From: Novosphingobium sp. KA1
GTDB taxonomy: Bacteria > Pseudomonadota > Alphaproteobacteria > Sphingomonadales > Sphingomonadaceae
Length of the DNA: 64,000 nt
NCBI RefSeq assembly: GCF_017309955.1
Contig: NZ_CP021248.1
Location: 496,001 to 560,000 of the forward strand
Direction: 5' to 3'
The notes under the pieces are model-generated. The model was not told where the DNA came from, searched no databases, and saw only the letters and a program-made list of their open reading frames with translations. Below, in pieces: positions 8,614-46,162 of the stretch. Position 1 is the stretch's first letter. Every line of letters begins with the position of its first letter. Made by a program: the position numbers and the translations under genes.

Positions 8614-8687
8614 TGTCCGTCGTCAGAACATTTGGCGCAACTTGCGGCGTAAATTAGCGGAGTGCGGGCCTCATCTGGGGGTTGATG

Positions 8688-28023: not shown

Positions 28024-29370
28024 TTAGAACTTGGCAGTGGCGCCGGGCTTGATCTCGAGGGTCACGCCCTCCTGGATCACCACGACGACGTCCTTGGCGG
28101 CGCCGACCTCAACGATGGGGCCCGCCTGCCGGGCGAGATCGAGATAGAAATCGGTGAGTTTGTCCGAAGACTTGGAAAGGCCCCCGGCGATGCCGGTCTT
28201 GGCGGCGTCCGCGGCATCGAGCGTGCGTACCGAACCCAGCGCGGAGGTCGACGTGCTGCCGAACGTACTTTCGACCGATTGCGAAATGCCGCTGATGGTG
28301 CCGGCGATGAAGGCACGGGCGAGCGTCGCGCCGGCGCGGGTCACGACCTTCCCCGACAGGCCCTTCTTGCCGTCGGTGTCGACGAAGAAGCCTTTGACGG
28401 GCTGATCGACCACCGAATGCTCGTCGAAATCGACACACGACAGCGAGACGAGCTGGATTTCCACCCGCTCCTTGGCGAGGCTGCCGGTGGCGTTGCCGAT
28501 GACGAAGCAGCCGGCAAGGTTGGCTTTGACCTCATTGGGCAGAACCGCGGGCGCCTGGACCCTCGCGATGATCGGCTCGGGATTGCTCGTGGCGTCCCGG
28601 CTGGCCAGCGCGTCGATCCCGGTCAGGAGCCGCGCCTTCATGAAACCAGGCGGTAAATAGATCGTCCGATTCTTTTTTTTGGACGAGGCCGAGACGTCGG
28701 CCACGCCCTGCGGCCCGCCCGTGCTTACGATCGCACCCGTCGCCGAGCCGATCGCGCCGATCGTCTTCTCGACCGGCGGGGCGGGCGGCGCCACAGATAC
28801 GGGACCGGTCGGCGGCGCGGGCAATCTGTCGGCATCCGCGGAAATGTCCCCGGTCTCGGGAGGATAGAGCAGGGCCGGGACGGTGTCCGGCAGCGCGGGC
28901 GGCAGATCGCCATCGCTGCCCTGGGCAGCCGCGGGCGACTTGCTGCCGGGAACCACCTTGCCTTCCTCGATGGCGCTCACCCGGTCCCCGAGCAGCTGCT
29001 GGCCATCGAGCACTTTCTTGAGGTCACCGCGCAGCTTCACCTCGAGACTGTCGCCGCGCAGGCCCGCGCCCATGTTGAGCGAGGCGGCGGGATCGGCACT
29101 CTTCACCTCTTCCTTGCGCCCGGAAGCCATATAGAGCGCAACCCCCAGTGCACCGACGGCAACGGCGACGGCGAGCTGGCGCGCGCGCAGCTTCTGCTTC
29201 GCGGACAACCGGTTCCACTGTGCTTTCCAGTCGGGGAAACCAAAGGGTGCGCCAATTCCAGCACGGCCCAGCACGTCCTCCCCTTCGCGCGCGGCCTGTT
29301 CGGCCAGGTGCGCCTGGTAGGCCGAACGCGGCTCAGGGGTGCCCGTGGCCTTGTCGTCCGGGCCGTTCAT
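28024..29370 (-). CDS. traB: Conjugal transfer core protein TraB (VirB10-like)
   Basis: A 448-aa protein with a cytoplasmic N-terminus, one membrane segment (QLAVAVAVGALGVALYMASG), a Pro-rich periplasmic stretch and a C-terminal VirB10/TraB beta-barrel region (residues 240-448, with IYLPPGFMKARLLTGIDALA and GCFVIGNATGSLAKERVEIQ). It spans both membranes and links the inner-membrane ATPases to the outer core. It overlaps traK by ATGA and lies 24 bp before traV. Confidence 0.94.
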   Translation of the reverse strand: MNGPDDKATGTPEPRSAYQAHLAEQAAREGEDVLGRAGIGAPFGFPDWKAQWNRLSAKQKLRARQLAVAVAVGALGVALYMASGRKEEVKSADPAASLNMGAGLRGDSLEVKLRGDLKKVLDGQQLLGDRVSAIEEGKVVPGSKSPAAAQGSDGDLPPALPDTVPALLYPPETGDISADADRLPAPPTGPVSVAPPAPPVEKTIGAIGSATGAIVSTGGPQGVADVSASSKKKNRTIYLPPGFMKARLLTGIDALASRDATSNPEPIIARVQAPAVLPNEVKANLAGCFVIGNATGSLAKERVEIQLVSLSCVDFDEHSVVDQPVKGFFVDTDGKKGLSGKVVTRAGATLARAFIAGTISGISQSVESTFGSTSTSALGSVRTLDAADAAKTGIAGGLSKSSDKLTDFYLDLARQAGPIVEVGAAKDVVVVIQEGVTLEIKPGATAKF

Positions 29371-30155
29371 TGCATTGCTCCCCGGCGCACGACTACGAGG
29401 CGGGCGGTTTCTCCGGCGGCCAGGCGCACCCGATCGAGGGTGATCGCGAAGATACGCTCACCGAGACCGGCATCGACCAGCTGGCGTTCGTCGAGTACGA
29501 TCGGCGCGGCGGCCTGTAGCCGGTATTCCGAAGCGGAAAGCCCGGTGCCTTCGATGGCGATCCGGCGCTGCTCGGTCAGCGAAAGGGCGGGCAGAGACGC
29601 AGGCCGTATCACCGTGTCCGATGGCGCGACTTCGCTGAAACTCGCCGGGACATGATCGTCGAGGAGCGCCATCGTCACCGAGACCGCGCGGTCCTCGTCG
29701 GCGAGCGCGGCGAGCAGATCGCTGTTCGCCTGCGCGCGCTGGCGGGCGCCCGGCACCAGCAGCACGGTCTGCGCCGGGATCTCGGCGGGTTCGGCATAGA
29801 GCGGATAGGTCGCGCCATTGCAGGTGACGAAGAATTCTGCAGGCTGGGTGACATAGGTCCGCGTGACCTGGCCGGCGTCGTCGGCCTCGCGGGTCAGGAA
29901 CTTGATCCAGGCGTCCGCGCCGCCCTTCTCGACGGCGAGACCCTTCTCGACCGAGAACTTGACGTCCTCGATCTCGCCGCCTTCGCAAACGACATGATTG
30001 ATGTCGCGGTTGGAGAGGCGGATATGGCTGGTCTGGTCCGGTAGGGCCTGGATACCCTGTGCCGATGCCGATGCTGATGCCGGCGCTGCCAGGAGCAGCA
30101 GGCAGAGCATCGGGGCGCGGCGCAACGACGCGCAGGGGTCAGCGTGTTTCGGCAT
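29367..30155 (-). CDS. traK: Conjugal transfer secretin-like protein TraK (VirB9-like)
   Basis: A 262-aa exported protein with a signal peptide (MLCLLLLAAPASASASA) and the TraK pattern: ALPDQTSHIRLSNRDINHVV, then CEGGEIEDVKFSVEKGLAVE, FFVTCNGATYPLYAEPAEIP and VLLVPG. It forms the outer-membrane core ring with TraV and TraB. The start overlaps traE by 17 bp. Confidence 0.93.
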   Translation of the reverse strand: MPKHADPCASLRRAPMLCLLLLAAPASASASAQGIQALPDQTSHIRLSNRDINHVVCEGGEIEDVKFSVEKGLAVEKGGADAWIKFLTREADDAGQVTRTYVTQPAEFFVTCNGATYPLYAEPAEIPAQTVLLVPGARQRAQANSDLLAALADEDRAVSVTMALLDDHVPASFSEVAPSDTVIRPASLPALSLTEQRRIAIEGTGLSASEYRLQAAAPIVLDERQLVDAGLGERIFAITLDRVRLAAGETARLVVVRRGAMQ

Positions 30156-30774
30156 CGAACTGCTCCTCGGAAAGGCGGGTCAGCCAGAAGCGGCCATTCT
30201 CGATCCGGTAGCCGATCCGCAGAACGCCCCGGAATTTGCGGATCACCCCGCCGATGACGCGGACTTTCTCCACCGGCACGAGGATCTCATGCGGCGTCCA
30301 GCGCACCGGCTGGTCACCCCGGATGTAGGTGGCGATCGACAGCGTTGGATTGTCGGCCAGTTCGTCGAGCACGCCGTTCAGGCTGTCGCGCATCGCGCCA
30401 TAGGCGGACGGATGGACAAGCCCGAGAAGCTCCTGGAACTGGCGGTCGGCCGAATAGGCCGACCATGTTCCCGACAGCGCGACGATGTTGCGCGTCATCG
30501 CGACGAGATAGGCTTCGGACGGCTTGCTGCCCGAGACGTAGAGATCGCCGGTGGCGCCGAAGGGCACGACCACGGTGCGCGCGTTCTGGTTGGTCGTGTA
30601 GATGACCGCTCCCAACACGAGCGTGACGCCGAACATGCCGGCCACCGCGACCTTGAGCAGCCGGTTCTCCTCGAAGAGGTTGGCCGAGCCCTGCAGATAG
30701 CGATGGATGCCGAAACTCGCCGGTTTGCCCAGCAGCGGATCTTCGGCCTTTCGCTTGCGTGAGAGGATACCCAT
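30139..30774 (-). CDS. traE: Conjugal transfer protein TraE (VirB5/8-like inner membrane)
   Basis: A 211-aa protein starting MGILSRKRKAEDPLLGKPAS. The cytoplasmic N-terminus is followed by one membrane segment (VAVAGMFGVTLVLGAVIYTT) and a periplasmic domain ending FRGVLRIGYRIENGRFWLTR. This is the TraE family of F-type systems, an essential pilus-assembly component. The frame is open far upstream, but this start gives the normal length and lies 5 bp after the traL stop. Confidence 0.93.
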   Translation of the reverse strand: MGILSRKRKAEDPLLGKPASFGIHRYLQGSANLFEENRLLKVAVAGMFGVTLVLGAVIYTTNQNARTVVVPFGATGDLYVSGSKPSEAYLVAMTRNIVALSGTWSAYSADRQFQELLGLVHPSAYGAMRDSLNGVLDELADNPTLSIATYIRGDQPVRWTPHEILVPVEKVRVIGGVIRKFRGVLRIGYRIENGRFWLTRLSEEQFDAETR

Positions 30775-30779: not shown

Positions 30780-31046
30780 CTACTCGAAGAAGCGGGTCTG
30801 CGTCGGACCCGGATAATGGGGGAAGGAGACCAGGCCCCAGCGCCAGGCCAGATGGGACAGGTAGCCCCTGGGCTTGCTTCGCTTCCATGGGATGAAAAGG
30901 AGAAGGGCGGCGATGAGCGCCCAGCCGACAAATCCGCCCACGATCGCGGCCACGAAGACGCTCGAGGTCGCGAGCAGGAACTCGTCCGATCCGAACCACA
31001 GGATCTGGACCGGCCGATGCAGATATTGCGGAAGGCGCTCGTCCAT
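30780..31046 (-). CDS. traL: Type IV conjugative transfer protein TraL (VirB3-like)
   Basis: An 88-aa protein starting MDERLPQYLHRPVQILWFGS at 31046, with a purine-rich AGGAGAAGGG site just upstream. It has a membrane hairpin (LLATSSVFVAAIVGGFVGWA, then LIAALLLFIPW) and the YLSHLAWRWG block typical of TraL. It works with TraE in pilin assembly at the inner membrane. Confidence 0.93.
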   Translation of the reverse strand: MDERLPQYLHRPVQILWFGSDEFLLATSSVFVAAIVGGFVGWALIAALLLFIPWKRSKPRGYLSHLAWRWGLVSFPHYPGPTQTRFFE

Positions 31047-31069
31047 GTGCCCTTCTCCTCCTGCTTCAT

Positions 31070-31114
31070 GACACCTTGCGAAGGTGTCGGTTTCCGAGGG
31101 CCGACCATCGGCCC
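31070..31114. promoter_or_regulatory. Two hairpins between traA and traL
   Basis: Two perfect inverted repeats lie in the 132-bp traA-traL gap: GACACCTT-GCG-AAGGTGTC at 31070-31088 and GGGCCGA-CCA-TCGGCCC at 31098-31114. Neither has a clean T-tract on the - strand. They may stabilise the pilin message or partly stop transcription, giving more TraA than downstream proteins. Confidence 0.5.
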
Positions 31115-31178
31115 CCAGCACGGTGCCGGCGCGGGACGGACCTGGCGGATCAGCCAGGTGCGCTCCGCGCCCTGCGTC

Positions 31179-31689: not shown

Positions 31690-32640
31690 TCAGCGCGGCG
31701 CATCGGTGGCGATCTTCGCCAGGGCGGGCTTCGCGTGCCGGTCGAGAAACGCCTCGAGCTCGGCCTGCTGGAAGCCCGAGATGAGCTTGCCGTCCGCAAT
31801 GAGGGTCGGCGTTCCCGAGATACCCACCCTGGCGACCAGTTCGGCATCGGCGGCGACCTTGTCGTGGCCGGCCGCGCACTGGCGAAGGGTCGGCGGGGTC
31901 TGGCCCGAATAGGCGGCCCTGAACGCTGCCTCGCGATCGGGCGAGCACAGGATATGCTCTGCCTTGGCCGCTGCGGTCGGGTGGATGCCGCTCACGAAGA
32001 AGATGAGGCGCCGGACCGGCTTACCCTCCGCCCCCTTGGCGTTCCAGTAGCGGTCGAGCGCCTGGCAGTAGGGGCAGTCGGGGTCGGTGAACTCGATCAC
32101 CGTCGGCGCATCGACCGGACCGATCGCCAGGGCCTTGGCTGGATCGATCGCCTTTAGGCGCCGGCTTGCGCCCTGTTCCTGGGCACGCGCCGTCAGGTTC
32201 ACGCCATTACGATCGTAGACCGTGGCAAACAGCAGGTGTTCGCTCTGCGGTGCGAAATAGATGATCTTGCCGCCCGCCGTGGCCTGATAGAGAGGCCCTT
32301 CGACCGGGGCGGGACCGAAGTCCTCGAAGCGCAGGTTGGTGAAGGTCTGGTGCAACTGCTGCTCGGCTTCAGCCTTTGCATCTCCCAGCAAATCTCCCTT
32401 CGTCGGACCTTGGGCCGCGACTACGGGCTGGTTCGATGCCTGATCCGGCTCACCGGCATGGGCGGAGACAGCCGACATGAGCGCCAGCCCTGCGGCACCA
32501 GCCACGCTTGGAAATAAACCCGGCCGCTTCGGCCATGTTGATTTCGCGAGCAGGCCTTCCCGTTGCGCCGTAGCGTGCCCGGTTCCGAGGACAGGAGCTA
32601 ACTTGGCGGTCATCGCCAATTCACGAGGATTGTGGAACAT
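31690..32640 (-). CDS. dsbC: DsbC-family thiol:disulfide interchange protein
   Basis: A 316-aa protein, first gene of the transfer operon. I chose the ATG at 32640 because a strong AAGGAGG site (32650-32656) lies 9 bp upstream. Residues 45-62 (SVAGAAGLALMSAVSAHA) look like a signal segment, preceded by an unusually long basic N-terminus. The DsbC dimerisation region is followed by a thioredoxin fold with C189-P-Y-C192 (FTDPDCPYCQALDRYW) and a cis-Pro region SGTPTLIADGKLISGF. It isomerises disulfides in the periplasm, probably for TraN, TraU and TraH. Confidence 0.92.
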   Translation of the reverse strand: MFHNPRELAMTAKLAPVLGTGHATAQREGLLAKSTWPKRPGLFPSVAGAAGLALMSAVSAHAGEPDQASNQPVVAAQGPTKGDLLGDAKAEAEQQLHQTFTNLRFEDFGPAPVEGPLYQATAGGKIIYFAPQSEHLLFATVYDRNGVNLTARAQEQGASRRLKAIDPAKALAIGPVDAPTVIEFTDPDCPYCQALDRYWNAKGAEGKPVRRLIFFVSGIHPTAAAKAEHILCSPDREAAFRAAYSGQTPPTLRQCAAGHDKVAADAELVARVGISGTPTLIADGKLISGFQQAELEAFLDRHAKPALAKIATDAPR

Positions 32641-32649
32641 TGGCACACG

Positions 32650-32947: not shown

Positions 32948-33370
32948 ATGAGGACTTCGAGAACATACAAGCTGCAGCTCTCAGGGCAGGGCATCGATCA
33001 GTTCCTCGCCTGCCATTGCCGGGTTGCGCGCCTGGCGAAGGAATTCATCCCCTATGGCATGACCCTCTATGTCGCCATGAGCCTGCTCGAAGCGAGCGAC
33101 CCGGCCGATATCGCTGCCGAGCTGGAATCCCCGGTGTGCAATGCGCTCGGTGGTTCCTCGAACCGCTTCGTGGGGACGACGTCACACCTTGCCGATCTAG
33201 TTGAGCAGGTTGGCGCGCGCCTCGCCGATAGTGGCCACTGTGGTCGATCCATAGCGACATGGCGCCTTTATAATGTCGGGCTCAGTCTGCTGCTGAGTTC
33301 CGAGGACGGGGAGCTACAGGCCGCCTATCGAAGAGCCGCCCAGACCATTCCGGTCCGGCGATCGCGCTGA
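32948..33370 (+). CDS. Unknown protein beside the transfer operon (140 aa)
   Basis: It begins MRTSRTYKLQLSGQGIDQFL and has a Cys/His patch (LACHCRVARLAKEF), a central acidic helix region and a closing basic tail. It has no signal peptide or membrane segment and no family is recognised. It lies divergent from dsbC and upstream of the XRE gene on the same strand. A role in control of the transfer region is possible from position only. Confidence 0.55.
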   Translation: MRTSRTYKLQLSGQGIDQFLACHCRVARLAKEFIPYGMTLYVAMSLLEASDPADIAAELESPVCNALGGSSNRFVGTTSHLADLVEQVGARLADSGHCGRSIATWRLYNVGLSLLLSSEDGELQAAYRRAAQTIPVRRSR

Positions 33371-33419: not shown

Positions 33420-33511
33420 GTTACCGGATTGACGTTTGGCGTAACGAACAACATTTTCTCCGAACTGGGCTGTGCACGGGAGCTTTGAGCCATTGGCAGG
33501 GAGATCTTGTC

Positions 33512-33922
33512 ATGCCGCTTCAGGCGATGCCCACTGCACGCGATCCCTCGGTGCTTGCGACGATCAAGCTGATGTCGGGGAGACGGATAGAAATGCAACG
33601 GCGTACCGAAAAGATTACGCAGGAAGACTTCGCCGCTCGTGTCGGAATCGGCGCGCGCTGGCTGCGCGAGATCGAGGCCGGCAACCCCAAGTCGCGGCTC
33701 GACGATCACTTCCGCTGCGCGCATGCCCTGGGGCTTTCGACCGGGCATCTCGTCATTCCGCTGCTGTTCATGGAACATCAGCGGGTCTTTCCCCGCGGCT
33801 TACTCGAAGGAGACCTCTCGAAGCTCGAAACCGTCTGCATAGATGCCATTGCCCGGCATAACCTCGACACGCTCTCGCACCAGCTCTTCGCACGCGATGC
33901 CGACCACACGCCCGACGACTGA
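33512..33922 (+). CDS. XRE-family helix-turn-helix regulator
   Basis: A 136-aa regulator starting MPLQAMPTARDPSVLATIKL at 33512, with AGGGAG 9-10 bp upstream; the frame is open to an upstream TTG. The HTH spans about residues 30-70 (KITQEDFAARVGIGARWLRE, IEAGNPKSRLDDHF). The remaining C-terminus is short and helical. It lies 3 bp before the GntR gene, so the pair is cotranscribed. A palindrome shared with the lasso promoter precedes it, suggesting that it or GntR binds both sites. Confidence 0.85.
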   Translation: MPLQAMPTARDPSVLATIKLMSGRRIEMQRRTEKITQEDFAARVGIGARWLREIEAGNPKSRLDDHFRCAHALGLSTGHLVIPLLFMEHQRVFPRGLLEGDLSKLETVCIDAIARHNLDTLSHQLFARDADHTPDD

Positions 33923-33925: not shown

Positions 33926-34558
33926 ATGATGTCGCCGGGAACCCGCCAGGGTGAGAAAGTCTATGCGGACCTTAAGGAAGCCGTGCTTTCGGGGCGCTAT
34001 GCGTCCGACACGGAGCTGTCTATTGCGGCTATCGCCGAGGATATCGGGGCCAGCGGCTCACCGGTCCGCGATGGTCTTCATCGCCTTTACGGCGAGCGGC
34101 TCCTGCAGATGGGCCCGCATCGAGGATTTAGAGTGCCCAGCTGGAGTGCCGATGCGCTCAGAGATTGCTACACATGGCATGGTCATCTCATGCGCATGGC
34201 CATCAAGGCGATCGGACCAAAGGCGCTCCGCGAACCGGTGGCGCCCGAGGGATGGCTGACCGATTACAGCACTCCCGATCGCATCGTCGCGACCGCGGAG
34301 CGCATGTTTCTCACGCTGGCGAACAGGTCCTCTTCCAACGAGCTCGTGGCCGCTGTCGTCAATGCGGGCGAGCGTTTGCGCACTATCCGACTCGTCGAAA
34401 CAGAACGCTGGTCGGACTGCGGCGACGAGCTTGTCTCTGCCAATGTATTGGCAAGATTTGAGCCCGGAAGCAGGCTACTGGAGGCTATCTGGAACTACCA
34501 CCGTCGCCGAATTCGGGCTGCGAATATGCTTTCTGAATCGCTAAAATCGCGGTTATAA
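33926..34558 (+). CDS. GntR-family regulator of the lasso-peptide locus
   Basis: A 210-aa protein with an N-terminal winged helix of the GntR type (GEKVYADLKEAVLSGRYASD, then AAIAEDIGASGSPVRDGLHR and LYGERLLQMGPHRGFRV) and a small helical C-terminal domain resembling a shortened FCD domain. GntR genes are known beside some alphaproteobacterial lasso-peptide clusters. It ends 166 bp before the precursor gene, with the shared palindrome in between. Likely controls the precursor and B/C genes; its ligand is unknown. Confidence 0.82.
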   Translation: MMSPGTRQGEKVYADLKEAVLSGRYASDTELSIAAIAEDIGASGSPVRDGLHRLYGERLLQMGPHRGFRVPSWSADALRDCYTWHGHLMRMAIKAIGPKALREPVAPEGWLTDYSTPDRIVATAERMFLTLANRSSSNELVAAVVNAGERLRTIRLVETERWSDCGDELVSANVLARFEPGSRLLEAIWNYHRRRIRAANMLSESLKSRL

Positions 34559-34708: not shown

Positions 34709-34724
34709 ATAGAAGGAGGTAAGT

Positions 34725-34859
34725 ATGGAACGCGAATACGAAGCCACCGATGATGGTGTCGTCGAACTGGGTGTCGGCTCCGAACTGACGAACGGAGTTG
34801 GTCGAGGCGGTATCGACTCTCCGGATCGGCAGCCGCTGACCGGGCTGCTCGACGACTGA
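34725..34859 (+). CDS. Lasso peptide precursor (sphingonodin-like)
   Basis: A 44-residue precursor. The leader, MEREYEATDDGVVELGVG then SELTN (23 aa), has the conserved Thr at the second-last position. The predicted core of 21 residues is GVGRGGID (macrolactam ring, Gly1 amine to Asp8 side chain) followed by the tail SPDRQPLTGLLDD. The GxGxGxxD ring and Asp-Asp end resemble sphingonodin II of other sphingomonads. AAGGAGG lies 5 bp before the ATG. The B and C genes follow in the same direction. Cleavage and ring closure are inferred from the family; the gene is too short for normal gene finders. Confidence 0.9.
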   Translation: MEREYEATDDGVVELGVGSELTNGVGRGGIDSPDRQPLTGLLDD

Positions 34860-34867
34860 AGCATCTG

Positions 34868-34896
34868 CCTGGCCCGACCGATTAGGCCGGGCCAGG
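34868..34896 (+). terminator. Hairpin between lasso precursor and B gene (attenuator candidate)
   Basis: CCTGGCCCG at 34868-34876 and CGGGCCAGG at 34888-34896 form a perfect 9-bp GC-rich stem with an 11-base loop. No T-tract follows (TATTCC), so it should be a partial stop or an RNA-stability element. It would give more precursor than enzyme, as is common between A and B genes of proteobacterial lasso loci. Confidence 0.65.
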
Positions 34897-34917
34897 TATT
34901 CCGTATCAGGTGAAGAA

Positions 34918-35589
34918 ATGCCGAGTGTTAGATTGAAAACTGACGTGGGTTATTGCGACAGCGGCGGGAAGATGATTTTCCTGGATGCGCTCCACGACCG
35001 ATATTTCTCAGTCACTCCCGCAATTGCGACGTTAGTTCGAAGCGTTTCATCAGGCGACGTTTTGAATGTCGCACAGCAGAACCTCCTGCTTCGTACGGGC
35101 CTATTTGAGATCGGCGAAACCGCGCAGGCAAGCAATTGTGCGCCATGTAATGTTGGCGTCGTCAGCGTGATGAGTGCCGCTCAGCATGTGGCAAAGCCGC
35201 GCCTGCGAAATGGCGTGAACTGGACGCTCGCGACCCTATCCTTGGCGTTATTTCATAACGTAGCGAGGCGGCTGCCTCTGCGTAGATCTCTGGCATTGGC
35301 AAAGGCATTGTCCCGCAGTTCGCTCGCGCGCCTGCTGCTTAAAGACCCGAACAGCATCCTGGTAGCATTCGACCGCGCGCTCCTTCTATTCCCCAGAAAG
35401 GATCGATGCCTGCCGGACGCTCTCGCCTTGTACCCACTGCTTAAATGTCAGAACCCGGCCACTCGAATAGTCTTCGGTGTGCGGACAGATCCCTTCCAGG
35501 CGCATTGCTGGGTTCAGATAGGCGCCATAGCAATCCAGCAAGACATCGAAGTCGTTCGGTCGTTCCAACCGATACTGGCCATCGCATGA
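34918..35589 (+). CDS. Lasso peptide B enzyme: RRE domain fused to leader peptidase
   Basis: A 223-aa protein. Residues 1-75 form a PqqD-like RiPP recognition element (LKTDVGYCDSGGKMIFLDAL, then HDRYFSVTP) that binds the leader. The C-terminal half is the transglutaminase-like cysteine protease, with Cys164 (KDRCLPDALALYPLL), His196 (FQAHCWVQIG) and a probable Asp209. It cuts the precursor so that Gly1 is freed for cyclisation. AGGTGAAG precedes the ATG, and its stop overlaps the C gene by ATGA. Single-chain B proteins are the rule in proteobacteria. Confidence 0.92.
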   Translation: MPSVRLKTDVGYCDSGGKMIFLDALHDRYFSVTPAIATLVRSVSSGDVLNVAQQNLLLRTGLFEIGETAQASNCAPCNVGVVSVMSAAQHVAKPRLRNGVNWTLATLSLALFHNVARRLPLRRSLALAKALSRSSLARLLLKDPNSILVAFDRALLLFPRKDRCLPDALALYPLLKCQNPATRIVFGVRTDPFQAHCWVQIGAIAIQQDIEVVRSFQPILAIA

Positions 35590-37271
35590 ACACCTCCTTT
35601 TCCTTCTGCCGTCGTCTGGGCGCGGATACGTCGGGAGGCGAAATGCACTCTGCGGACGCGCCGTCTCTAGAGGGAATAGACCATAGTTCTGATATTCGAG
35701 TCTGCGTCTTGGGGCGTGGGAATTGTGTAGTAGTCGGAGATTGTTTCCCGGACGTCCTCGATACGTCGGACGTCTGTCACGATCCGGTCCAAAAGGTGAA
35801 AGCGTTGGCCGGTCAACATTGGGGTCGCTTCGTTGTCATCGCGTATAGCTCTTGCACAAGATCGCTTGTAATATATCGCGACCCATCGGGAATGGTGCCT
35901 TGCTACTATAAAATTTTTCAAGACTATGTGATGCTGAGTTCAGCAATTCCAAAATCTCCGCGATCAAGCGCCGGCCGTCTATCCCTCAACTGGAATGCCA
36001 TAGCTCATCATCTCGTGTTTCCGCATTTACCCCAGCGGCAAACATGCCTGGACGGTATATGCGAGGTTTTGCCAGGAGAACTGGTAATTATCCGCGATGA
36101 AGCCGCGCACCATGAGTTGATTTGGAAGCCCTCTCACTATGTCGGAGACAATCGCTCCTGCAATGTCTCAGAAGCGCGGGACAAGTTAGGCGCCGTCCTC
36201 AAGGATACGTTGGAAACATGGTGCAGTCGGTATCCTTGTCCTTTGATATCTGCGTCTGGTGGCTTCGATTCTTCAACGGTCGCCAGTCTCGCCAGAAGCT
36301 TTGGTTCCATCAAGCTCATAAACTTCTACACGGAATCGCTCAGGGGGGACGAGAGAGCCTATGCATCCACGCTTGCAGACTATCTTGGTGAAGACCTCAA
36401 TACTGCGATTTGCCGGGCTGACGATGTTGAGGTTCAGAAGAACCTTTCGGCCTTTCGTCCGTGCCCTTCAGCCCGCACTTTTACGCAGACTTTTGACAAA
36501 GCAGCGAGGGCCTATGCCGACGCGGTCAACGCCAGCGCCCACTTTTCTGGTGGGGGTGGAGATAACGTCTTTGGAAAACTGCATTCGGCCTACCCCCTCG
36601 CGGATCTCTTTAAACAAAAGGGATTCTGTAAGGATCTCTGGCCGACTTTGCTCGATATCTGTCATGTCACCGGCGCACCGCTGACGGGGGCCCTTCGTCA
36701 GGTTGTAGGTTCGTTGACTGGCGTCAGGAGCCCGTCGTCCTGGACCATGCACCCCGAGTTATTGAGAGCCGATATTGTCTCTTCGATATCAGAGAATCTG
36801 CATCCCTGGGTTACAGACGTCGCCAGCGAAGCTCCCGGTAAGCGGCAACTTGTCAGAAATATAGCGCGCGCAACCGCGCTCACGGGCTATCTTAATATTC
36901 TTGACGATCGACCAACAGTTTATCCGCTTTTATCGCAACCCATCATCGAACTATCCTTGTCATTCCCGACTTGGCTGTGGGTCGCCGGGGGGGCTGACCG
37001 AGCCATCGCGCGCATGGCGATGCGCTCTTCCTTGCCGGCCCAAATCCTTGATCGGAAGGGGAAGGGCGCTTTTGATGGGTTGGTCTACCAAATCTTGAGC
37101 CAAAACTGGGACCAAATTTTTGATGACCTCGAAGGTGGCCTACTCGCCGATCACGGGTTACTTGACATTGAGGAAATGAGGGCCATTCGTCGCAATCGGC
37201 TCGAAGCCAAATTCATGTCGAACATTCTTCATATCCATGAGACAGAAGTCTGGTGCAGATCCTGGGCGTGA
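35586..37271 (+). CDS. Lasso peptide macrolactam synthetase (C enzyme, Asn-synthetase-like)
   Basis: A 561-aa protein starting MNTSFSFCRRLG at the ATGA overlap with B. The N-terminal glutaminase-like domain (residues 30-190) lacks the N-terminal catalytic Cys. The C-terminal synthetase domain has the pyrophosphate loop SASGGFDSS (222-230) and a second motif SGGGGDNVF (321-329). It adenylates the Asp8 side chain of the core so that the Gly1 amine can close the ring. It is likely to work in a complex with B. Its stop codon lies in a hairpin shared with the convergent isopeptidase gene. Confidence 0.93.
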   Translation: MNTSFSFCRRLGADTSGGEMHSADAPSLEGIDHSSDIRVCVLGRGNCVVVGDCFPDVLDTSDVCHDPVQKVKALAGQHWGRFVVIAYSSCTRSLVIYRDPSGMVPCYYKIFQDYVMLSSAIPKSPRSSAGRLSLNWNAIAHHLVFPHLPQRQTCLDGICEVLPGELVIIRDEAAHHELIWKPSHYVGDNRSCNVSEARDKLGAVLKDTLETWCSRYPCPLISASGGFDSSTVASLARSFGSIKLINFYTESLRGDERAYASTLADYLGEDLNTAICRADDVEVQKNLSAFRPCPSARTFTQTFDKAARAYADAVNASAHFSGGGGDNVFGKLHSAYPLADLFKQKGFCKDLWPTLLDICHVTGAPLTGALRQVVGSLTGVRSPSSWTMHPELLRADIVSSISENLHPWVTDVASEAPGKRQLVRNIARATALTGYLNILDDRPTVYPLLSQPIIELSLSFPTWLWVAGGADRAIARMAMRSSLPAQILDRKGKGAFDGLVYQILSQNWDQIFDDLEGGLLADHGLLDIEEMRAIRRNRLEAKFMSNILHIHETEVWCRSWA

Positions 37272-37291
37272 AATGAGGTCGCCATTTCACG
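37267..37291. terminator. Bidirectional terminator between the C gene and the isopeptidase gene
   Basis: CGTGAAATG at 37267-37275 and CATTTCACG at 37283-37291 make a perfect 9-bp stem with a 7-base loop. The stop codons of both convergent genes (37269-37271 and 37287-37289) are inside the stem, and a T-containing GCTTTAATT follows on the + strand. This compact arrangement can stop transcripts from both sides. Confidence 0.65.
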
Positions 37292-39320
37292 GCTTTAATT
37301 GCAGCTCGAGCCATTCGACGTTGCGATTGTAGATCGATTGGCGATGGCTGGGCCAAATTTTGATGTGGCCTTCATCCGGGTAGACAAACATGTCGACCGG
37401 CCATCCACGATGACGCAACTCTCGATAAGTACCCAACGCCATCCGATATTCCGCAGCGGACGCCTGGATGAGAATCGGGAGAATCTTGGGATTCAGAGCA
37501 TTGGCGAGGGATCCGGAGCGCCAGAAGGCCGCGCCGTTGGCGTTCGTGGCTGGATACCCCGCCTGTACATAATAGTCGTCCAGTGCAGATCCGGCGATTT
37601 CGAGCGCAAAAGGCCCTTCGCAACATGTACTGAGGATCGCAGCCGAAAACAGGGTGGAATGCGAGAGAGCAAATGTAGCGGTCACTGCGCCGTCGCTGAG
37701 ACCCGTAATGGCGACCTTCGTTGGATCGATGATTTTCTCGACGTCGAGCTGATGGATTATTCGCTCGAGGGAAGAGAGGTTACTGCGTCTGTCGGCAAAG
37801 TTGCGTAGGTTGAATTGGTTGAATTCATCCTCGCTACGTGGCGCCATGGTGTAGGCGAACCATGGAGGTCTGTTGAAACTCAACACGGCGAAACCACGCG
37901 CAGCCAGAGCCTGAATCGGATACTCATCACCAGTCCCACCACGTAGGAAGCCCTTCGAATCATATTGGACGATTACCAGTGGGAGGCGCCGATCCCCTTG
38001 ATATCCCGGCGGAAGGACGAGATCGCCAAAGGTGGAAATCCCAAAATCATTCGACCACTCCAGCCTGCGGACTGTACCCAGCGAGAATCTCTCGAAATCC
38101 GGATTGGGGTCGAAGATGCGGTGTCGAGCCCCATTTCGCGTCGAGATGGCGACCAGGGTGCGCGGCTTGGTGGCAGTCTCTTCCGCGCAAAGAAGGTCGC
38201 TATCGGCTAATTTGCATCCAAAGATCGAGTCTGCCGTGGCAAGCAATAACCGCGGGCTTCCGCGTCGGGGCATCCAGGCGTAGAACTCCGTCCGCCCGTC
38301 CGCCACACCGGCTCGGCGTTCGAAGTAAAGCGTTTGCCCATCCTTTGACCACCAGAGTCCTTGAACGTTCGAACATTTCGCCTGTGAACATGGCACTATT
38401 TGACCGTCCACACGAAGCGCCAGTGTTGGCTTCTCGCCGAAGATCTGACCAGACGAGGCAGACCAGGCGACGCTGTCGCCCGACGCGGAGACCGCATAGG
38501 CGACAGCTCCCTCCGGCCAGGTAGACCAAGGCCACAGTAATTGGACACTTTCCTTCGGCGGCGCAACTTCCGTTCCGTCCGCTGATCTGATCGCTTTGTG
38601 AACAAGAGGAACATCCGCCGAAATCAAGGGGCGGTCGCTGTATAGCGGTCGGAAGCGACTATCGTAGTGATATCCCTCACGACTCTCAGCCTCGATAGCT
38701 TTACGGGCGGCTGTTCTATCTGGACGACTCGAATAGAGAATTGTTGAGCCATCCAGCGCCCAGGCCAGCTCTTCAATATCGACATCAGACGTGGCCAAGC
38801 GATGCGTTGACCGATCTGCTAGGTCAAATCGCCAGATTTCTGAGCGGTCCAGGAAGTTTTTCGTGTAGGCGAGATTGGCGCCATCGGGCGACCATCTTAT
38901 CAAAATATTCTTGGGTATGCCTTTGGGGACCTCGGCTGCTCCATATGCGGTGCTGTAAGCCCCAACGATCTTTCCGCCATCATCAATGACAGTAGGAAAT
39001 CCGCCCCGCCTCGCAGGTGCAAGCACAATGGCCGTGCAATAGTCGTTCGTCGTTGAATCAGCTTGGCGAATTTGCAAGGCGATCCATTTTCCGTCGGAGG
39101 ATAGTTCAAAAGGTTCGGAAGTGATTCCTACCCCCAACTCGCCAAAATCCCGCAGACGAAGGAGATCATCCGAATTGATGGCGCGATGTTCCGAAGCTTC
39201 GGCTGCGGCTGGTCTTGGCAGCGTACAAGGCGTTACCTGGGCCTTGGCTTGGGAAATGTGGGCGCATGATGCGAGCGCCAAGACGCAACTCGCGTGGGCT
39301 GCGAAACGAGACCGTGTCAT
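37287..39320 (-). CDS. Lasso peptide isopeptidase (AtxE2 family, prolyl-oligopeptidase fold)
   Basis: A 677-aa exported protein (signal peptide ending near ISQAKAQ). A beta-propeller region (residues 80-400) is followed by an alpha/beta-hydrolase domain. Catalytic Ser542 lies in TGLSDGAVTA and His652 in YPDEGHIKIW. Glu624 (IQASAAEYRMAL) sits at almost the same spacing as the third residue of AtxE2's Ser-Glu-His triad. Such enzymes open the isopeptide bond of the threaded peptide after import. The gene lies 43 bp after the TonB receptor and is probably cotranscribed with it. It should act in the periplasm. Confidence 0.92.
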   Translation of the reverse strand: MTRSRFAAHASCVLALASCAHISQAKAQVTPCTLPRPAAAEASEHRAINSDDLLRLRDFGELGVGITSEPFELSSDGKWIALQIRQADSTTNDYCTAIVLAPARRGGFPTVIDDGGKIVGAYSTAYGAAEVPKGIPKNILIRWSPDGANLAYTKNFLDRSEIWRFDLADRSTHRLATSDVDIEELAWALDGSTILYSSRPDRTAARKAIEAESREGYHYDSRFRPLYSDRPLISADVPLVHKAIRSADGTEVAPPKESVQLLWPWSTWPEGAVAYAVSASGDSVAWSASSGQIFGEKPTLALRVDGQIVPCSQAKCSNVQGLWWSKDGQTLYFERRAGVADGRTEFYAWMPRRGSPRLLLATADSIFGCKLADSDLLCAEETATKPRTLVAISTRNGARHRIFDPNPDFERFSLGTVRRLEWSNDFGISTFGDLVLPPGYQGDRRLPLVIVQYDSKGFLRGGTGDEYPIQALAARGFAVLSFNRPPWFAYTMAPRSEDEFNQFNLRNFADRRSNLSSLERIIHQLDVEKIIDPTKVAITGLSDGAVTATFALSHSTLFSAAILSTCCEGPFALEIAGSALDDYYVQAGYPATNANGAAFWRSGSLANALNPKILPILIQASAAEYRMALGTYRELRHRGWPVDMFVYPDEGHIKIWPSHRQSIYNRNVEWLELQLKP

Positions 39321-39363
39321 GATGAAACTTTCGGGAGAGTGAGCGACCTGCCGGACTTGTTCG

Positions 39364-41925
39364 TTACCAGTCCTTCGAGAGTGTCAGGCTTATGAAGCGA
39401 CCAATGGCCGAGAAATTGGTCGAATCGTAGTTCACATAATCGAGGTAGCCGCTCGTCGGCGCCGCATAGGGCGGGCGCTGATTAAATATGTTCTGCACGC
39501 TGAGAAGAGCGCTCACGCCGTGGAATGGTCCTGCGGGGGTGGGAAGCTCATATCTGATCGATCCGTCAAATGTCGTTTGCGAGGAAATCTTGGCGACCGT
39601 CGTGGACCGCGTATCCTTCAGGCTGCTGATGTGATTGACATAAAGCATCGATGTGAAATTACCGTCGGTCCATCCGATGCTTCCGCGCGCCTTGAATCTT
39701 GGAGGATTAAAGATAATGCCCGCCATATCCAGCGCTGTGCTTTCGCTGGTCAATTTCTGTTTCGACCAGAGCCAGGCTCCATTGGCGTTCAGCAGCATTG
39801 CTGACTGAGTGCCAATATCGATCCGATAATCGGCGGTCAGGTCGATGCCATCGATTTTCTGTTTTGCAGCATTCACGTAGCGATTATTAAGGATCGCGAC
39901 GACATTATTCAGGCCATCGAGCGTCGTATAATTATAGAATAGGTCTGCATTGGCGATTGTTTGATCAACCAGCGTCTGACTGGGGTCATAGGTGACATAT
40001 TGCTCGTAATCCGGGTTAGACAGCGCCTGATAGACAGCCGTACCTGCTACTGGCTGCACGACGCGGTCCTTATACTGCACGTTGAAGTAGCTGACCTGAA
40101 GGTTGAAGCCCTTGATCCACTCTGGATGCACTGCGATGGAAGCAGACCAGGAAGTGGCTTTCTCAGGCTTTAGGTCCGCGTTGCCGCCAGACTCTATGAG
40201 CATTGTCGATCCGACGGGAAAGCGCGCTCCTCCAAATGTATCGGCAGTGTACAACTGGGCGTAAGTTGCAGCCCGAAGATCATTCAAGAGCGGGGCCTTG
40301 AATGATTTTCCCCATGACGTCTTTATGTCGATGGATGGGGAAACTCCATATACGACGCCAAACTTCGGCACGGCGACATTGGCAATGCCCGGATACCGTT
40401 CGTATCGCACGGCGGCGTTTGCTGAAAGGCTATGAAGGAGAAGGCCGCCTTGACCGGGCTCAACGAATGGCAACGACAGCTCAGAAAACGCATAATAGCT
40501 TTTGACCGACCCAGCGGAGTCGGCTCTCGATGCGGAGTACCGCGTGGAGGTATAATGATTATAGCGATAACCTCCACCCACAACGATGCCGATAGGATTA
40601 GCGATAATTCCCGGTATTCGCCCCGATACAAAGCCCTCGATATTGGCCAACTCGTTACAATAGCAGCCACGGATGCGGCTCGTCTGCGTGCCCTCGTACA
40701 GTCCTATTTGGTCGAACTTTGTGTCGCTCCGCCCATAGGTTCCCCCAAAGCTAAAATGCCAGTCGGGTGCTATTTTGATTTTAAGCGACGGGGATATCGA
40801 GTAGGACTCGGTTTCTGGAGAGTTCTGGTAAATATCCCCGTAAACCAATTCCTCCTGTTGAAACGACGTTCTGCGGCTGTAGGTGGCGTCGATTGAAATA
40901 TCGGCAATCGATCCAATTGACTGATGGCCGGATATGATTGCATTTGTTTGCTTGATTTCGGGATACAGGGTGGTCCCCTGCGGCATATACTGCGTGAAGC
41001 TGCGATCATGGCTGTATATTGCGGAATTATAGTCATGGCTGACAGCAGCCAGTACTGCGCCCGTTTGCCATGTCTTTCCTATCACGGCACTGTATTGCTG
41101 CTGAACATCGCCCCCCGATGTTGCTGCGCCTAGTCTTGCTACCAGGGTCGCTCCATCGAAATTACGCTTCAGTACGACATTCACCACACCGCCTACGGCA
41201 TCCGAACCATAAATGGCTGAAGCGCCGTCCGCGACGATATCGACGTGGTCAATAGCGGCAAGAGGAATGGTACTGACGTCTACGGCTTGTACCCTTGCAC
41301 CGTACGAAAGCCGATGACCGTTCATCAATGTGAGCGTTGCATCGCCTCCCAATCCTCGAAGATTGGGAGAAGAGCCGGAGCTCACATTGCCGTTACCGCT
41401 GCCGGTAGTGCCACTCATGACACCGGGGTTCTGGCCGCCGCTGAAATTTTGTGGGAGCGAACGCATCGCTTCACCCACGTCGGCTTGTCCTGCCAGCTTG
41501 ATCGTATCAGCGTCGAGTTTGATGGTAGGAGAGGAGGATTCCTCCGACGACAAGCGCGATCCGGTAACGATGATGTCATCACCGTTTCCCAATGTGCTCG
41601 TGGCTGTCGAGACTCTTCCCACACTGATGATTAATGCGCCGTCGATAACTTCGGCAGTCAGGGTGGAGCCTTTCAGCAATTGCTTTGCTGCCTGTGCCGG
41701 TGAAAATTGCCCCCTGAGTGGCTTTGAGGTCTTTCCCCGCAGTGGGTCGGCTGGAGCAGAAAATTCCAACCCACTTTGGCGGGCAATCGCTCGCAATGCC
41801 TCGGTGAGCGACTGCGCGGGTAAATCGAAATTCCGAACCTGATCGGCTTGCGCCATTGCAGATGTAGCGCCGATCAACGCATATGCGCAAACACCGACGA
41901 AAAAGCCGTTACGAACCACTCGCAT
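39364..41925 (-). CDS. TonB-dependent receptor/transducer with STN domain
   Basis: An 853-aa outer-membrane receptor. I chose the ATG at 41925 (MRVVRNGFFVGVCAYAL) because a GGGGGAT site precedes it and it gives a clean signal peptide. Residues about 30-105 form the STN signalling domain (FDLPAQSLTEALRAIARQSG), which contacts FecR. The plug domain follows (IIVTGSRLSSEESS, SPNLRGLGGDATLTLMNGHR, DGASAIYGSDAVGGVVNVVL) and then a beta-barrel ending in ISLTLSKDW. It probably imports the lasso peptide and signals its presence inwards. Confidence 0.93.
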   Translation of the reverse strand: MRVVRNGFFVGVCAYALIGATSAMAQADQVRNFDLPAQSLTEALRAIARQSGLEFSAPADPLRGKTSKPLRGQFSPAQAAKQLLKGSTLTAEVIDGALIISVGRVSTATSTLGNGDDIIVTGSRLSSEESSSPTIKLDADTIKLAGQADVGEAMRSLPQNFSGGQNPGVMSGTTGSGNGNVSSGSSPNLRGLGGDATLTLMNGHRLSYGARVQAVDVSTIPLAAIDHVDIVADGASAIYGSDAVGGVVNVVLKRNFDGATLVARLGAATSGGDVQQQYSAVIGKTWQTGAVLAAVSHDYNSAIYSHDRSFTQYMPQGTTLYPEIKQTNAIISGHQSIGSIADISIDATYSRRTSFQQEELVYGDIYQNSPETESYSISPSLKIKIAPDWHFSFGGTYGRSDTKFDQIGLYEGTQTSRIRGCYCNELANIEGFVSGRIPGIIANPIGIVVGGGYRYNHYTSTRYSASRADSAGSVKSYYAFSELSLPFVEPGQGGLLLHSLSANAAVRYERYPGIANVAVPKFGVVYGVSPSIDIKTSWGKSFKAPLLNDLRAATYAQLYTADTFGGARFPVGSTMLIESGGNADLKPEKATSWSASIAVHPEWIKGFNLQVSYFNVQYKDRVVQPVAGTAVYQALSNPDYEQYVTYDPSQTLVDQTIANADLFYNYTTLDGLNNVVAILNNRYVNAAKQKIDGIDLTADYRIDIGTQSAMLLNANGAWLWSKQKLTSESTALDMAGIIFNPPRFKARGSIGWTDGNFTSMLYVNHISSLKDTRSTTVAKISSQTTFDGSIRYELPTPAGPFHGVSALLSVQNIFNQRPPYAAPTSGYLDYVNYDSTNFSAIGRFISLTLSKDW

Positions 41926-42010
41926 TTCATCCCCCAATGCCTGGATGGCGCGTTGCGTGACGCGCATACAAAGCTTGACGGGAGAAATTCAGTGACGAGC
42001 ATTGCGACGA

Positions 42011-43048
42011 TTATTTCGTCAGTACGAGCCTGTCTGATCCTTGATTTTCAACAATAAGACCGAGCGCGCGGGCAAGATGCTTCGCCACACTTTCGGGGTT
42101 GCGGATATGCAGCTCCGCACTCACCCGCATTGCGGCAACTTCTGGAGAAGCTGCCACCAGCTTGACGTCGGAATAGAGGTTCACCTCGGCGAGGATCACA
42201 CTAACGGCCTCATCGTCATAGCTCTTCACGCCGATTGTCCATTGCTCGTCGTTGGCCGGTGCCGGTTCGGTGATAGCATTGCCGGTTACCGTGGGTGTGC
42301 CAGAGTAGCGTATACGTTCGCCTGGTTGAAGGTAGCTCTTCGCTACCGGCGCCGAGGGCTTGCGTGTCTCGCATGGCGGAGTGACTGCGACACGCCCTTC
42401 GTACAATACCACATTCATCTGGCAATGCGCGCGTCGTTCCACACCGAACCGCGTGCCGAGCGCTGTGGTAGTGCCGCCATCCGCAGTGACAGTGAAAGGG
42501 CGCGAAGCGTCATGAGCAACAGCGAAGATGGCGCGGCCATGATCGAGCGTAACGTCCCGGCGCTCTTCATGCATCCAGACAAGCAAGCGGCTATCGGTAT
42601 CGAGTGTTACGACCGACCCATCGGCAAGCGTAATCGTCCTCACCTCGCCTTTCCGGGTGGTAAAGATCTGTGGCGCATCCTCGGTTTTCGCGCCTGACGA
42701 TGCAATTGGTGGCAGAGTGGAGGGCGAACGCACATTCTGCCCCAGCACGAAATGCGCTCCCAAAAGCAGGATGGCGGCCAGCGAAGCTGCGATCGCCAAC
42801 TTTGCCCAGGGCACGCGTGGGCGGCTCTCTCGTGGACTGCTGTTGTGCCGCTCGTGAACGTTCACGGATGCGGGATCAACGACGTTCGAGATCGCGGCAT
42901 AGGCAATGTCGAATTCCGCCTGATGTTCGGGCGACTGAGCGCACCAATGCATTGCGGCGGAGCGCAGCGCGGGATCCATGTGAACCTCCATCGCCCAGCG
43001 CCGAGCCTGTTGCTTGACAGTGAGCGAGCCCGGCTCTTCGTCGGTCAT
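42011..43048 (-). CDS. fecR: FecR-family anti-sigma/signal transducer
   Basis: A 345-aa inner-membrane protein starting MTDEEPGSLTVKQQARRWAM in an ATGA overlap with the sigma gene. The DUF4880-type N-terminus (WAMEVHMDPALRSAAMHWCA) is followed by one membrane segment (LAIAASLAAILLLGAHFVLG) and a periplasmic FecR domain (VRTITLADGSVVTLDTDSRL). A C-terminal secretin-like segment (ILAEVNLYSDVKLVAASPEV) contacts the receptor's STN domain. It passes the receptor signal to the FecI-type sigma factor. Confidence 0.92.
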   Translation of the reverse strand: MTDEEPGSLTVKQQARRWAMEVHMDPALRSAAMHWCAQSPEHQAEFDIAYAAISNVVDPASVNVHERHNSSPRESRPRVPWAKLAIAASLAAILLLGAHFVLGQNVRSPSTLPPIASSGAKTEDAPQIFTTRKGEVRTITLADGSVVTLDTDSRLLVWMHEERRDVTLDHGRAIFAVAHDASRPFTVTADGGTTTALGTRFGVERRAHCQMNVVLYEGRVAVTPPCETRKPSAPVAKSYLQPGERIRYSGTPTVTGNAITEPAPANDEQWTIGVKSYDDEAVSVILAEVNLYSDVKLVAASPEVAAMRVSAELHIRNPESVAKHLARALGLIVENQGSDRLVLTK

Positions 43049-43605
43049 CGGCTTTCCATCCTGTCCAGCAGATGGTCCAGCACCTTGAATATCTTCCTCT
43101 TCACCGCCCACTCATTCAGTCCCTTAAGCCGACCGATTTCGCGAAAGCTATATCCTTCCACACGGTTTAGCAGAAATAGTTCGCGGTCGAAGGGGTCCAG
43201 TGCTTCCAGCAATTGCTCGCAAAAGGCGATGTCGTCACGCGCTGTGAGGATGCGGAGCGGGTCGAACGGGGTCGGGAGATCTTCAGCATCCGACAAGGGG
43301 CTTTTCAGATTATCGACGCGCGTTGACGACAGATCGGCCCGGTCGCGCAGCAAGTTCGTGGCGATCCGGCGTAGGTAGGCCTGCGGTGTCGTAAGCATTT
43401 TTGCCGTGCCGCTCCGGAGGAAACGGAAGAAGGTTTCCTGAGCGAGCTCGTCCGCTTCTGCATGGGGAACCGAGTTGCGGTGGAAATAGCGGACCAGCCA
43501 CCGGGTCTCCTCGCGGTACAGCCGGACGATCACATCATCGCCGCGATCTTCGAATTCCTGACCCGCATCGGTAGCGGCGTGGCCTTCACCGGGCATGACG
43601 GCCAT
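43045..43605 (-). CDS. fecI: FecI-type ECF sigma factor
   Basis: A 186-aa sigma factor with region 2 (RYFHRNSVPHAEADELAQET, FFRFLRSG) and region 4 (LFLLNRVEGYSFREIGRLKG, then LNEWAVKRKIFKVLDHL). It is the first gene of a fecI-fecR-receptor-isopeptidase transcript. Activation by the periplasmic signal should raise receptor and isopeptidase levels. A start three codons later (MPGEGHAAT) is also possible. Confidence 0.92.
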   Translation of the reverse strand: MAVMPGEGHAATDAGQEFEDRGDDVIVRLYREETRWLVRYFHRNSVPHAEADELAQETFFRFLRSGTAKMLTTPQAYLRRIATNLLRDRADLSSTRVDNLKSPLSDAEDLPTPFDPLRILTARDDIAFCEQLLEALDPFDRELFLLNRVEGYSFREIGRLKGLNEWAVKRKIFKVLDHLLDRMESR

Positions 43606-45442: not shown

Positions 45443-45448
45443 CTCCCT

Positions 45449-46075: not shown

Positions 46076-46077
46076 GG

Positions 46078-46116: not shown

Positions 46117-46162
46117 TCGGTGTGAGGGACACCGCGAGTCTGTACCCGGAACTGGGACTTGA

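Follow-up and report, generated by a model that had tools for sequence, protein, structure and literature searches.

The 64,000-nucleotide stretch of Novosphingobium sp. KA1 DNA analyzed here, which we call the window, very probably carries an isopeptidase-type lasso peptide cluster at a fixed backbone place of one sphingomonad lineage of F-type conjugative elements, where the part of the cluster that touches the peptide forms a cassette in which a deeply diverged allele has replaced the earlier one. The initial annotation had read the locus as that of a lasso peptide. The peptide and its isopeptidase-type cluster were confirmed, but the exchangeable cassette in a conjugative backbone had been missed.

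The precursor and the genes around it

The lasso cluster comprises the following features.

33926-34558, + strand: GntR-family regulator (PF00392, 41.2 bits versus a cut-off of 27; 95% identical in genomes G414 and G434)
34713-34720, + strand: Shine-Dalgarno sequence AAGGAGGT, read from the sequence, 4 nt 5' of the precursor ATG
34725-34859, + strand: precursor ORF, 44 aa, encoding MEREYEATDDGVVELGVGSELTN followed by GVGRGGIDSPDRQPLTGLLDD; stop codon 34857-34859
34725-34793, + strand: leader peptide, 23 aa, Thr at -2; contains the final conserved bases ahead of the cassette break
34794-34856, + strand: core peptide GVGRGGIDSPDRQPLTGLLDD, predicted ring Gly1-Asp8 (translation and ring-acid rule)
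34866-34898, + strand: A/B intergenic hairpin (RNA fold)
34918-35589, + strand: lasso B protein, leader-peptide protease, 223 aa (NF033537, 63 bits versus 33; PF13471, 63.9 versus 26)
35586-37271, + strand: lasso C macrolactam synthetase, 561 aa (PF00733, 62.8 bits versus 21; SGGFDSS motif)
37287-39320, - strand: Atxe2-type lasso isopeptidase (NF033523, 690.6 bits versus a cut-off of 400)
39364-41967, - strand: TonB-dependent receptor with N-terminal STN (PF00593, PF07715, PF07660; STN match just below cut-off)
42011-43111, - strand: FecR-type anti-sigma regulator (PF04773; 98% identical in G414)
43045-43605, - strand: ECF-type sigma factor (Sigma70_r2 and r4_2; 98% identical in G414)

The 44-residue precursor proposed by the initial annotation proved real, with a strong ribosome-binding site, profile matches and relatives at the same place. 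Residue T22 occupies position -2, and the core opens with G24. Since Asp8 is the sole acid at core positions 7-9, an 8-residue ring is the only standard choice, in agreement with the earlier prediction of a Thr at leader position -2 and a core starting with GVGRGGID closed from Gly1 to Asp8. PMC7549694 states a role for the conserved leader Thr, and a table there gives sphingonodin II and syanodin I as neither heat-stable nor resistant to carboxypeptidase Y. The predicted product is a threaded peptide with a Gly1-Asp8 isopeptide bond. Its computed monoisotopic mass as a lasso (minus one water) is 2119.0657 Da, with [M+H]+ at 2120.073, matching the values of about 2119.07 and 2120.07 given before. 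The doubly charged ion would lie at m/z 1060.540, and forms shortened by one or both terminal Asp residues at 2005.046 and 1890.019. Downstream of the precursor, the region 34856-34917 folds at -31.2 kcal/mol, versus -17.5 +/- 2.9 for shuffled sequences (z -4.7).

The precursor matched NF033522 (benenodin) at E 1.7e-6, with 27.8 bits in one search and 25.9 in another. Because these scores are below the cut-off of 33 bits, we kept it out of this family, though it would work like a member. PF24178 (Subterisin) was matched at E 1.3e-5 with 25.5 bits versus a gathering threshold of 27, and the protein database lists a precomputed PF24178.2 match for the same sequence. These two matches, together with same-leader relatives at the same place beside B and C genes, show that the ORF is more than chance. 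As judged from its profile matches and neighbors, the precursor adds a member to a known kind, the isopeptidase-type lasso peptides. The expectation that gene finders would skip the ORF found no support, since the identical protein is already listed on seven contigs in the protein database.

A protein-database search at E <= 0.01 returned, besides the precursor itself, one relative, 66% identical and with a different core; this search had limited reach, and relatives that it missed were recovered by genome searches. The string GVGRGGID did not occur in the open-licence literature searched, and the core matched no PDB chain at E <= 10. Thus, the earlier description of the core as undescribed stands for the open-licence literature, the PDB and the protein database searched, and is limited by that open-licence scope. 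A tblastn search of plasmid records with the precursor gave no match; a 44-aa query is insensitive there, because even the known relatives were missed. A search of phage records gave nothing useful.

The B, C, GntR and isopeptidase genes placed around the precursor by the initial annotation were all found by profile matches. In the B protein, Cys164, His196 and Asp209 lie within the expected motifs. The C start overlaps the B stop (ATGA), and every NCBIfam match of the C protein was under its cut-off. Judged by eye, the isopeptidase N-terminus looks like a secretion signal. With GntR before the precursor and with TonB and sigma/anti-sigma after the isopeptidase, the cluster fits the isopeptidase-type layout, which the part of PMC9266682 available describes as near-constant. 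It shares with the benenodin/subterisin type (NF033522, PF24178) the precursor length, the leader LG...T-x-G and the isopeptidase/GntR/TonB/FecR/sigma cluster. In contrast to this type, its precursor scores under both curated cut-offs, and its cassette appears exchangeable and lies in a conjugative backbone.

A fixed place beside one T4SS lineage

The conjugative backbone and the other genes flanking the cluster are listed below.

11161-32646, - strand: F-type (MPF_F) type IV secretion system (T4SS) operon, including TraG, TraH and others (Pfam TraG_N, TraH, TraU, TraC_F_IV, TrbI, TraK, TraE, TraL, DsbC_N)
22654-23667, - strand: TraU
24848-27394, - strand: TraC
28024-29370, - strand: TrbI/TraB-like protein
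29367-30155, - strand: TraK
~30139-30759, - strand: TraE
30780-31121, - strand: TraL
31690-32646, - strand: DsbC
32948-33370, + strand: 140-aa protein (hyp140), family-less (no match in Pfam or NCBIfam)
33485-33922, + strand: XRE-type HTH regulator (TIGR03070, HTH_31/HTH_3, all below cut-offs)
44522-46918, - strand: PhyH, LuxI-like protein (45449-46132) and LuxR, right of the cluster (PF05721, PF03472)
51336-53378, + strand: ParB-like protein (annotated as ParB at the corresponding site of pBSY17_1 and pCHQ1)
54238-58500, + strand: strawberry-notch-type helicase (PF13872/PF13871; annotated likewise on pBSY17_1 and pCHQ1)

The TraL/E/K/B/C/U/H/G set identifies the T4SS of the window as F-type (MPF_F), and the same gene order is annotated on pCHQ1, pBSY17_1, pHR1a and pSA2. 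At its left end (window positions 5130-9740), an IS91-type transposase, a phage-type integrase and an rve-core transposase were seen; on pHR1a, an integrase is annotated together with IS91 at a comparable position.

We surveyed 397 genomes of the family, 66 of which match NF033522 at E <= 0.001 and 93 of which have TraU. The joined lists held 92 precursor rows and 127 TraU rows, the latter split by score into 24 of the window's lineage, 97 other full-length ones and 6 that are partial or at a contig edge. The lineage, first chosen by TraU score, was afterwards confirmed by identity: TraU of its 24 members is 82-100% identical to that of the window, versus 31-36% for 15 sampled others. These 15 control loci (L090-L104) were drawn from the 97, and one is only 918 bases long. 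One locus, L089 of G201, lacks similarity to the window T4SS and was counted among the six partial ones. A precursor was found within 13 kb of traU in 9 of the 24 lineage loci, versus none of the 97 and none of the 6 (Fisher p 1e-7, a statistic that ignores relatedness). Within 30 kb of TraU the counts were 12/24, 0/97 and 0/6, and within 60 kb 13/24, 1/97 and 1/6. The 15 remaining lineage loci have no precursor match at the site, although three have one 20-26 kb off in another arrangement and one has one 50 kb off. The conserved order at the site is dsbC, then hyp140-XRE-GntR-A-B-C, then isopeptidase-TonB.

Plasmid records showed the same association. TraU was matched at E <= 1e-60 by 57 records, nine of which are at least 80% identical; all nine are from sphingomonads. 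Seven carry a lasso cluster at the site (pCHQ1, KACC 22771, N. humi, pBSY17_1, Sphingobium sp. V4, pHR1a and pSA2), with pSA2 and pHR1a nearly alike (99% throughout), whereas pDC02 and pMSHV showed no lasso gene within the 40 kb examined. MOB-suite typed pCHQ1, V4, pSA2 and pHR1a as conjugative and pBSY17_1, KACC 22771 and N. humi as non-mobilizable. On pSA2 and pHR1a, a second small precursor-like ORF, MGVNKASANEIIELGSVIACTK followed by GPPGPFIEFVGTGYPYGMHDD and annotated as a hypothetical protein, adjoins the annotated benenodin-family precursor. Among the titles of the open-licence literature searched, we found no paper on a link between lasso clusters and conjugative elements.

The two genes between DsbC and GntR go with the T4SS lineage. 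Of the eight lineage loci that bear a lasso cluster and extend beyond the site, seven have hyp140, as does the clipped locus L084; among 15 lineage loci lacking a lasso cluster at the site, one has it (L069). XRE is present in 11 of those 15 loci (two of which are clipped), arguing that XRE at least is part of the element. None of 57 lasso clusters away from this T4SS had either gene; several of those stretches lack a detected B or end early. To the right, ParB-like and strawberry-notch genes also lie beyond the cluster in G144, G164, G287 and pBSY17_1 and are annotated on pCHQ1; the second locus of the KA1 genome has ParB alone within its stretch, and the stretches examined in G171 and G011 showed neither gene.

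The PhyH, LuxI-like and LuxR genes of the window sit between the lasso cluster and RadC. They also occur near the cluster in G144, and an AHL synthase and PhyH lie near that of pCHQ1. The LuxI reading comes from this annotated pair on pCHQ1 and from the sequence itself, not from a family search. PhyH was considered as a possible lasso-tailoring enzyme. According to two luxI papers (PMC4288048, PMC3704786), PhyH adjoining luxI is an ordinary sphingomonad arrangement; the word lasso appears in neither paper.

The KA1 genome has three lasso clusters, all on the 1.8-Mb contig C2, two of which adjoin two separate T4SS of the lineage. The second cluster (845524-850327; L065, L002) has two precursors, with cores GPPLPVAVDIQGAFGTEGLNDE and GAPLPVDVELQGSFAPSGLSDE, so that one replicon bears two T4SS-lasso modules. 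The third (358638-363267; L133, L003, L023; core GPVGNNPDVGLGQIDAGLAED) has no TraU match nearby; PhyH, LuxI-like and LuxR-like genes lie upstream of its GntR gene, and the window cluster has relatives of all three on its other side. Elsewhere in the family, four loci (L113 in G163, L118 in G110, L150 in G245 and L154 in G164) have an isopeptidase and a TonB receptor without B or C detected in the surrounding 14 kb by models built from three sequences; these are possible receiver-only loci or split clusters.

The divergent cassette

Among 195 genomes searched within the genus, six, including that of KA1, match the precursor at E <= 0.001; G473, which belongs to the KA1 species, had no match at this threshold. 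Three of the five others (G414, G434 and G474) have the lineage T4SS beside the cluster, and G444 and G452 showed no tra gene in the 20 kb around it. The cores of the latter two, GIAGGQVDLPAGQGHAGILDD (L189) and GIVGNPVDAPAGQGLAGILDD (L190), are presumably close to syanodin I.

Comparison with G414 and G434 revealed a sharp step, which delimits one further feature.

34794-41880: divergent "allotype" cassette, containing the precursor core, B, C, the isopeptidase and all of TonB except roughly its first 30 residues; the right edge is an estimate that comes from G414 only

Window positions 10416-64000 align with positions 35046-89111 of G414 contig C13 at 91-94%, except from 34795 to about 41.9 kb. 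DNA identity over the left backbone is about 93-94% to both genomes, and in G414 it holds at about 94% up to 34795, where the core starts at 34794. The G434 alignment extends to 34897, beyond the hairpin, with lower identity across the core. The two genomes also part from each other at position 12789 of L186, where the core begins at 12787. Their leaders are nearly the same as that of the window and their rings also close at Asp8, but their cores differ (GFGGSGADNPDQQPNPGILEG and GSGDFLTDNPQGRQQPGILED).

Proteins outside the cassette are almost unchanged. TraU is 99%, XRE 100% and GntR 95% identical in G414 and G434, and on the right flank identity to G414 is 98% for FecR, sigma, LuxI and LuxR, 93% for ParB and 95% for strawberry-notch. 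Inside it, identity to G414 and G434 falls to 44 and 40% for B, 50 and 43% for C and 63 and 55% for the isopeptidase; TonB is 72% identical in G414. At fourfold sites of unchanged residues, identity to G414 is 37% for B, 29% for C, 32% for the isopeptidase and 34% for TonB, versus 78-94% for 15 flanking genes. The corresponding values against G434 are 32, 24 and 31% for B, C and the isopeptidase, versus 82-95% for eight left-flank genes. Since silent sites escape selection on protein sequence, the cassette alleles are far older than the flanks.

Silent sites also located the right edge. Silent identity of TonB to G414 is 94% over residues 1-30, 40% over residues 31-60 and 25-47% beyond (7 to 106 sites per bin), and this drop past the first 30 residues places the edge near the TonB start. 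An edge at residues 84-100 was rejected: residues 61-84 are 100% identical as protein, but their silent sites are only 27% identical, and the edge lies within the first 30-60 residues. The clean step rests on two genomes, both drafts, and the G434 contig stops before the right edge. Thus, a divergent block of signal, maker and receptor genes between conserved regulators was observed with both edges against G414 and with the left edge against G434. The replaced block consists of the genes that must recognise the peptide.

It is possible, though we consider it the less probable account, that selection on the TonB receptor through phage or bacteriocin entry or cheating diversifies the cassette and drags the peptide genes along, the peptide being of a scavenging or nutrient type, as in siderophore-receptor pairs. 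TonB receptors are known entry points, and the silent sites of TonB are as saturated as those of the peptide genes. The TonB-FecR-sigma layout moreover resembles siderophore systems, according to the available part of PMC9266682. However, TonB is not the most divergent part of the cassette, because protein identity to G414 is lower for B (44%) and C (50%) than for TonB (72%).

It is unlikely that an ordinary lasso cluster merely rides on the plasmid and that low identity reflects an intrinsically fast rate everywhere, with no exchange. Lasso clusters are indeed frequent in the family, as the 66 of 397 genomes matching NF033522 illustrate, and two pairs with TraC at about 95%, window/G144 and G164/G287, have closely similar protein identities (XRE 85 and 85%, GntR 62 and 62%, B 36 and 37%, C 44 and 45%). 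Silent identity in these pairs declines by degrees, from 60 and 56% for TraC through 61 and 48% for XRE and 44 and 35% for GntR to 28-36% in the cassette. Because this fall is gradual, without a clean edge, rate and exchange are indistinguishable in these two pairs. Against G414 and G434, in contrast, the cassette silent sites are near random between flanks at 78-95%, which selection on amino acids alone is insufficient to explain, and the left break falls at the leader/core junction. For this set, the idea that lasso genes just evolve fast was rejected on the silent sites. A control pair with related cores, KACC 22771 and N. humi, showed no step, its silent identity being 42-69% from hyp140 to TonB, although at the DNA level identity is 84% in the T4SS and 78% beginning with XRE.

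Cassette replacement is also indicated by G057, whose partners differ for the regulators and for B and C. Silent identity of G057 to G164 is 51% for hyp140, 65% for XRE and 60% for GntR, but 32% for B and 37% for C; to G287, B and C reach 46 and 45%, and the cores are one residue apart. By these values, G057 is a further cassette swap. In its stretch (L078), the precursor core GNSGGLGDTVIQRQLTGIGLEDD and B are kept, the C match is weak only, and the isopeptidase and TonB were not found; this element is perhaps decaying. An initial impression that G057 lacks a recognisable precursor was rejected: the pattern search had missed it, and a profile match and re-check found it.

Tree conflicts likewise argue against a uniform fast rate. 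In the TraC tree, 15 lasso-bearing elements are scattered among 14 others, which takes no fewer than 2 to 4 changes, and the T4SS-linked set forms three well-supported groups plus V4. The isopeptidase tree conflicts with it: RAC03 and V4 fall with G164, G287 and G331, and the second KA1 locus falls with KACC 22771 and N. humi. In AU tests, whose p-values are to be taken loosely because the groups were named once the trees had been seen, two TraC groups were rejected by the isopeptidase (p 4e-65 and 1e-73), TonB (4e-4 and 7e-5) and C (0.002 and 0.004); lasB gave weak conflict or none (0.08 and 0.03). XRE, hyp140 and GntR recovered one TraC group at support 100 and did not reject the other (p 0.48, 0.58 and 0.125). 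The TraC tree in turn rejected the isopeptidase groups. A single origin of the sampled T4SS-linked isopeptidases was also rejected (AU p 0.0003; 14 versus 57 others, 71 isopeptidases in all). G011c9 and G331c17, which are among these 14, are presumed to be T4SS-linked from the fit of their contig ends, and G287 was used once. The isopeptidase scan kept the best three candidates per genome and gave at least 82 rows, of which 60 were taken. Five of the other 22 were already in other loci, and 17, some of them full-length, were left out, near-copies and lower-scoring rows among them. Rows of 560 aa or less were excluded from the isopeptidase trees.

We also consider it improbable that the locus simply encodes a sphingonodin-like lasso peptide at an unremarkable place. 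The likeness claimed by the initial annotation holds for the GxGxGxxD motif of the ring and for the terminal Asp-Asp, which recur in the core of pCHQ1 from Sphingobium indicum UT26S (GMGSGSTDQNGQPKNLIGGISDD), which we take to be sphingonodin II. The pCHQ1 cluster also has the same gene order, with the T4SS on its left and ParB/strawberry-notch on its right; the literature consulted makes no comment on this position beside the T4SS. The likeness does not extend to the cluster as a whole: despite a TraC identity of 82%, the pCHQ1 isopeptidase, B and C are 36, 29 and 31% identical to those of the window, and its core differs. Isopeptidase identity is 63% for G414, 55% for G434 and 56% for G144, and by such comparisons the window cluster as a whole is nearer to these three than to pCHQ1. 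G144 shares the leader start MEREYE, a TraC of 94% and an XRE of 85% identity, and an identical order, but differs in its core (GAGQLRIDNPQGQPSFGTLDD) and in B (36%), C (44%) and the isopeptidase. The place beside the T4SS lineage and the cassette structure further speak against this explanation.

That the locus is silent or decaying and yields no peptide is very improbable, for although the precursor scores are below the curated cut-offs and the relative G057 shows neither isopeptidase nor TonB in its stretch, the A, B, C and isopeptidase frames of the window are open with the expected motifs, the ribosome site is strong, B and C overlap at ATGA and the leaders are conserved in relatives.

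A proposed matched set and its meaning

The sequences themselves show the content and place of the cluster between the T4SS and the ParB/helicase module, the identity step, the near-random silent sites and the tree conflict. The preferred reading is that of a replaced cassette at a fixed site. The cassette of core, B, C, isopeptidase and TonB would have been swapped, most simply through recombination in the conserved flanks, while XRE, GntR, FecR, sigma and the leader would remain with the backbone. Going by their families, B would bind the leader and cut after Asn23, and C would join Gly1 to Asp8 around the threaded tail. The TonB receptor would import the cognate peptide and the isopeptidase would open it, with TonB-FecR-sigma feeding back to raise expression.

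Because peptide, maker, opener and receptor must match, whole sets would be exchanged, as in pheromone-type loci, and by this analogy the need for a matched set is the most likely cause of the swap. The agr, ComQXP and pyoverdine/FpvA specificity loci have a divergent block of signal, maker and receptor between conserved parts. They resemble the window cluster in working only; the chemistry and the genes are unrelated. Extending the analogy, lasso peptides might be allotype-specific signals of conjugative elements, with matched sets swapped and with uptake of the own peptide through TonB-FecR-sigma sensing whether neighbors have that element too, so that transfer or competition could be adjusted. 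We regard this extension as doubtful.

In the available part of PMC9266682, known isopeptidase-type lasso peptides lack antimicrobial activity, astexin-1 excepted. The cassette bears on the role of these peptides. That peptide, enzymes and receptor are replaced en bloc, with the left break between leader and core, while the regulators on either side are conserved, speaks for selection on peptide-receptor matching. It also gives a mining rule for further clusters, namely, to search between dsbC/XRE/GntR and FecR/sigma of the lineage T4SS. That the cluster is one of several interchangeable versions at one fixed place beside the transfer genes suggests that a matched signal-and-receptor set may be traded between plasmids. 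If true, the allotype-signal reading would supply a function for these lasso peptides, described as lacking antimicrobial activity apart from astexin-1.
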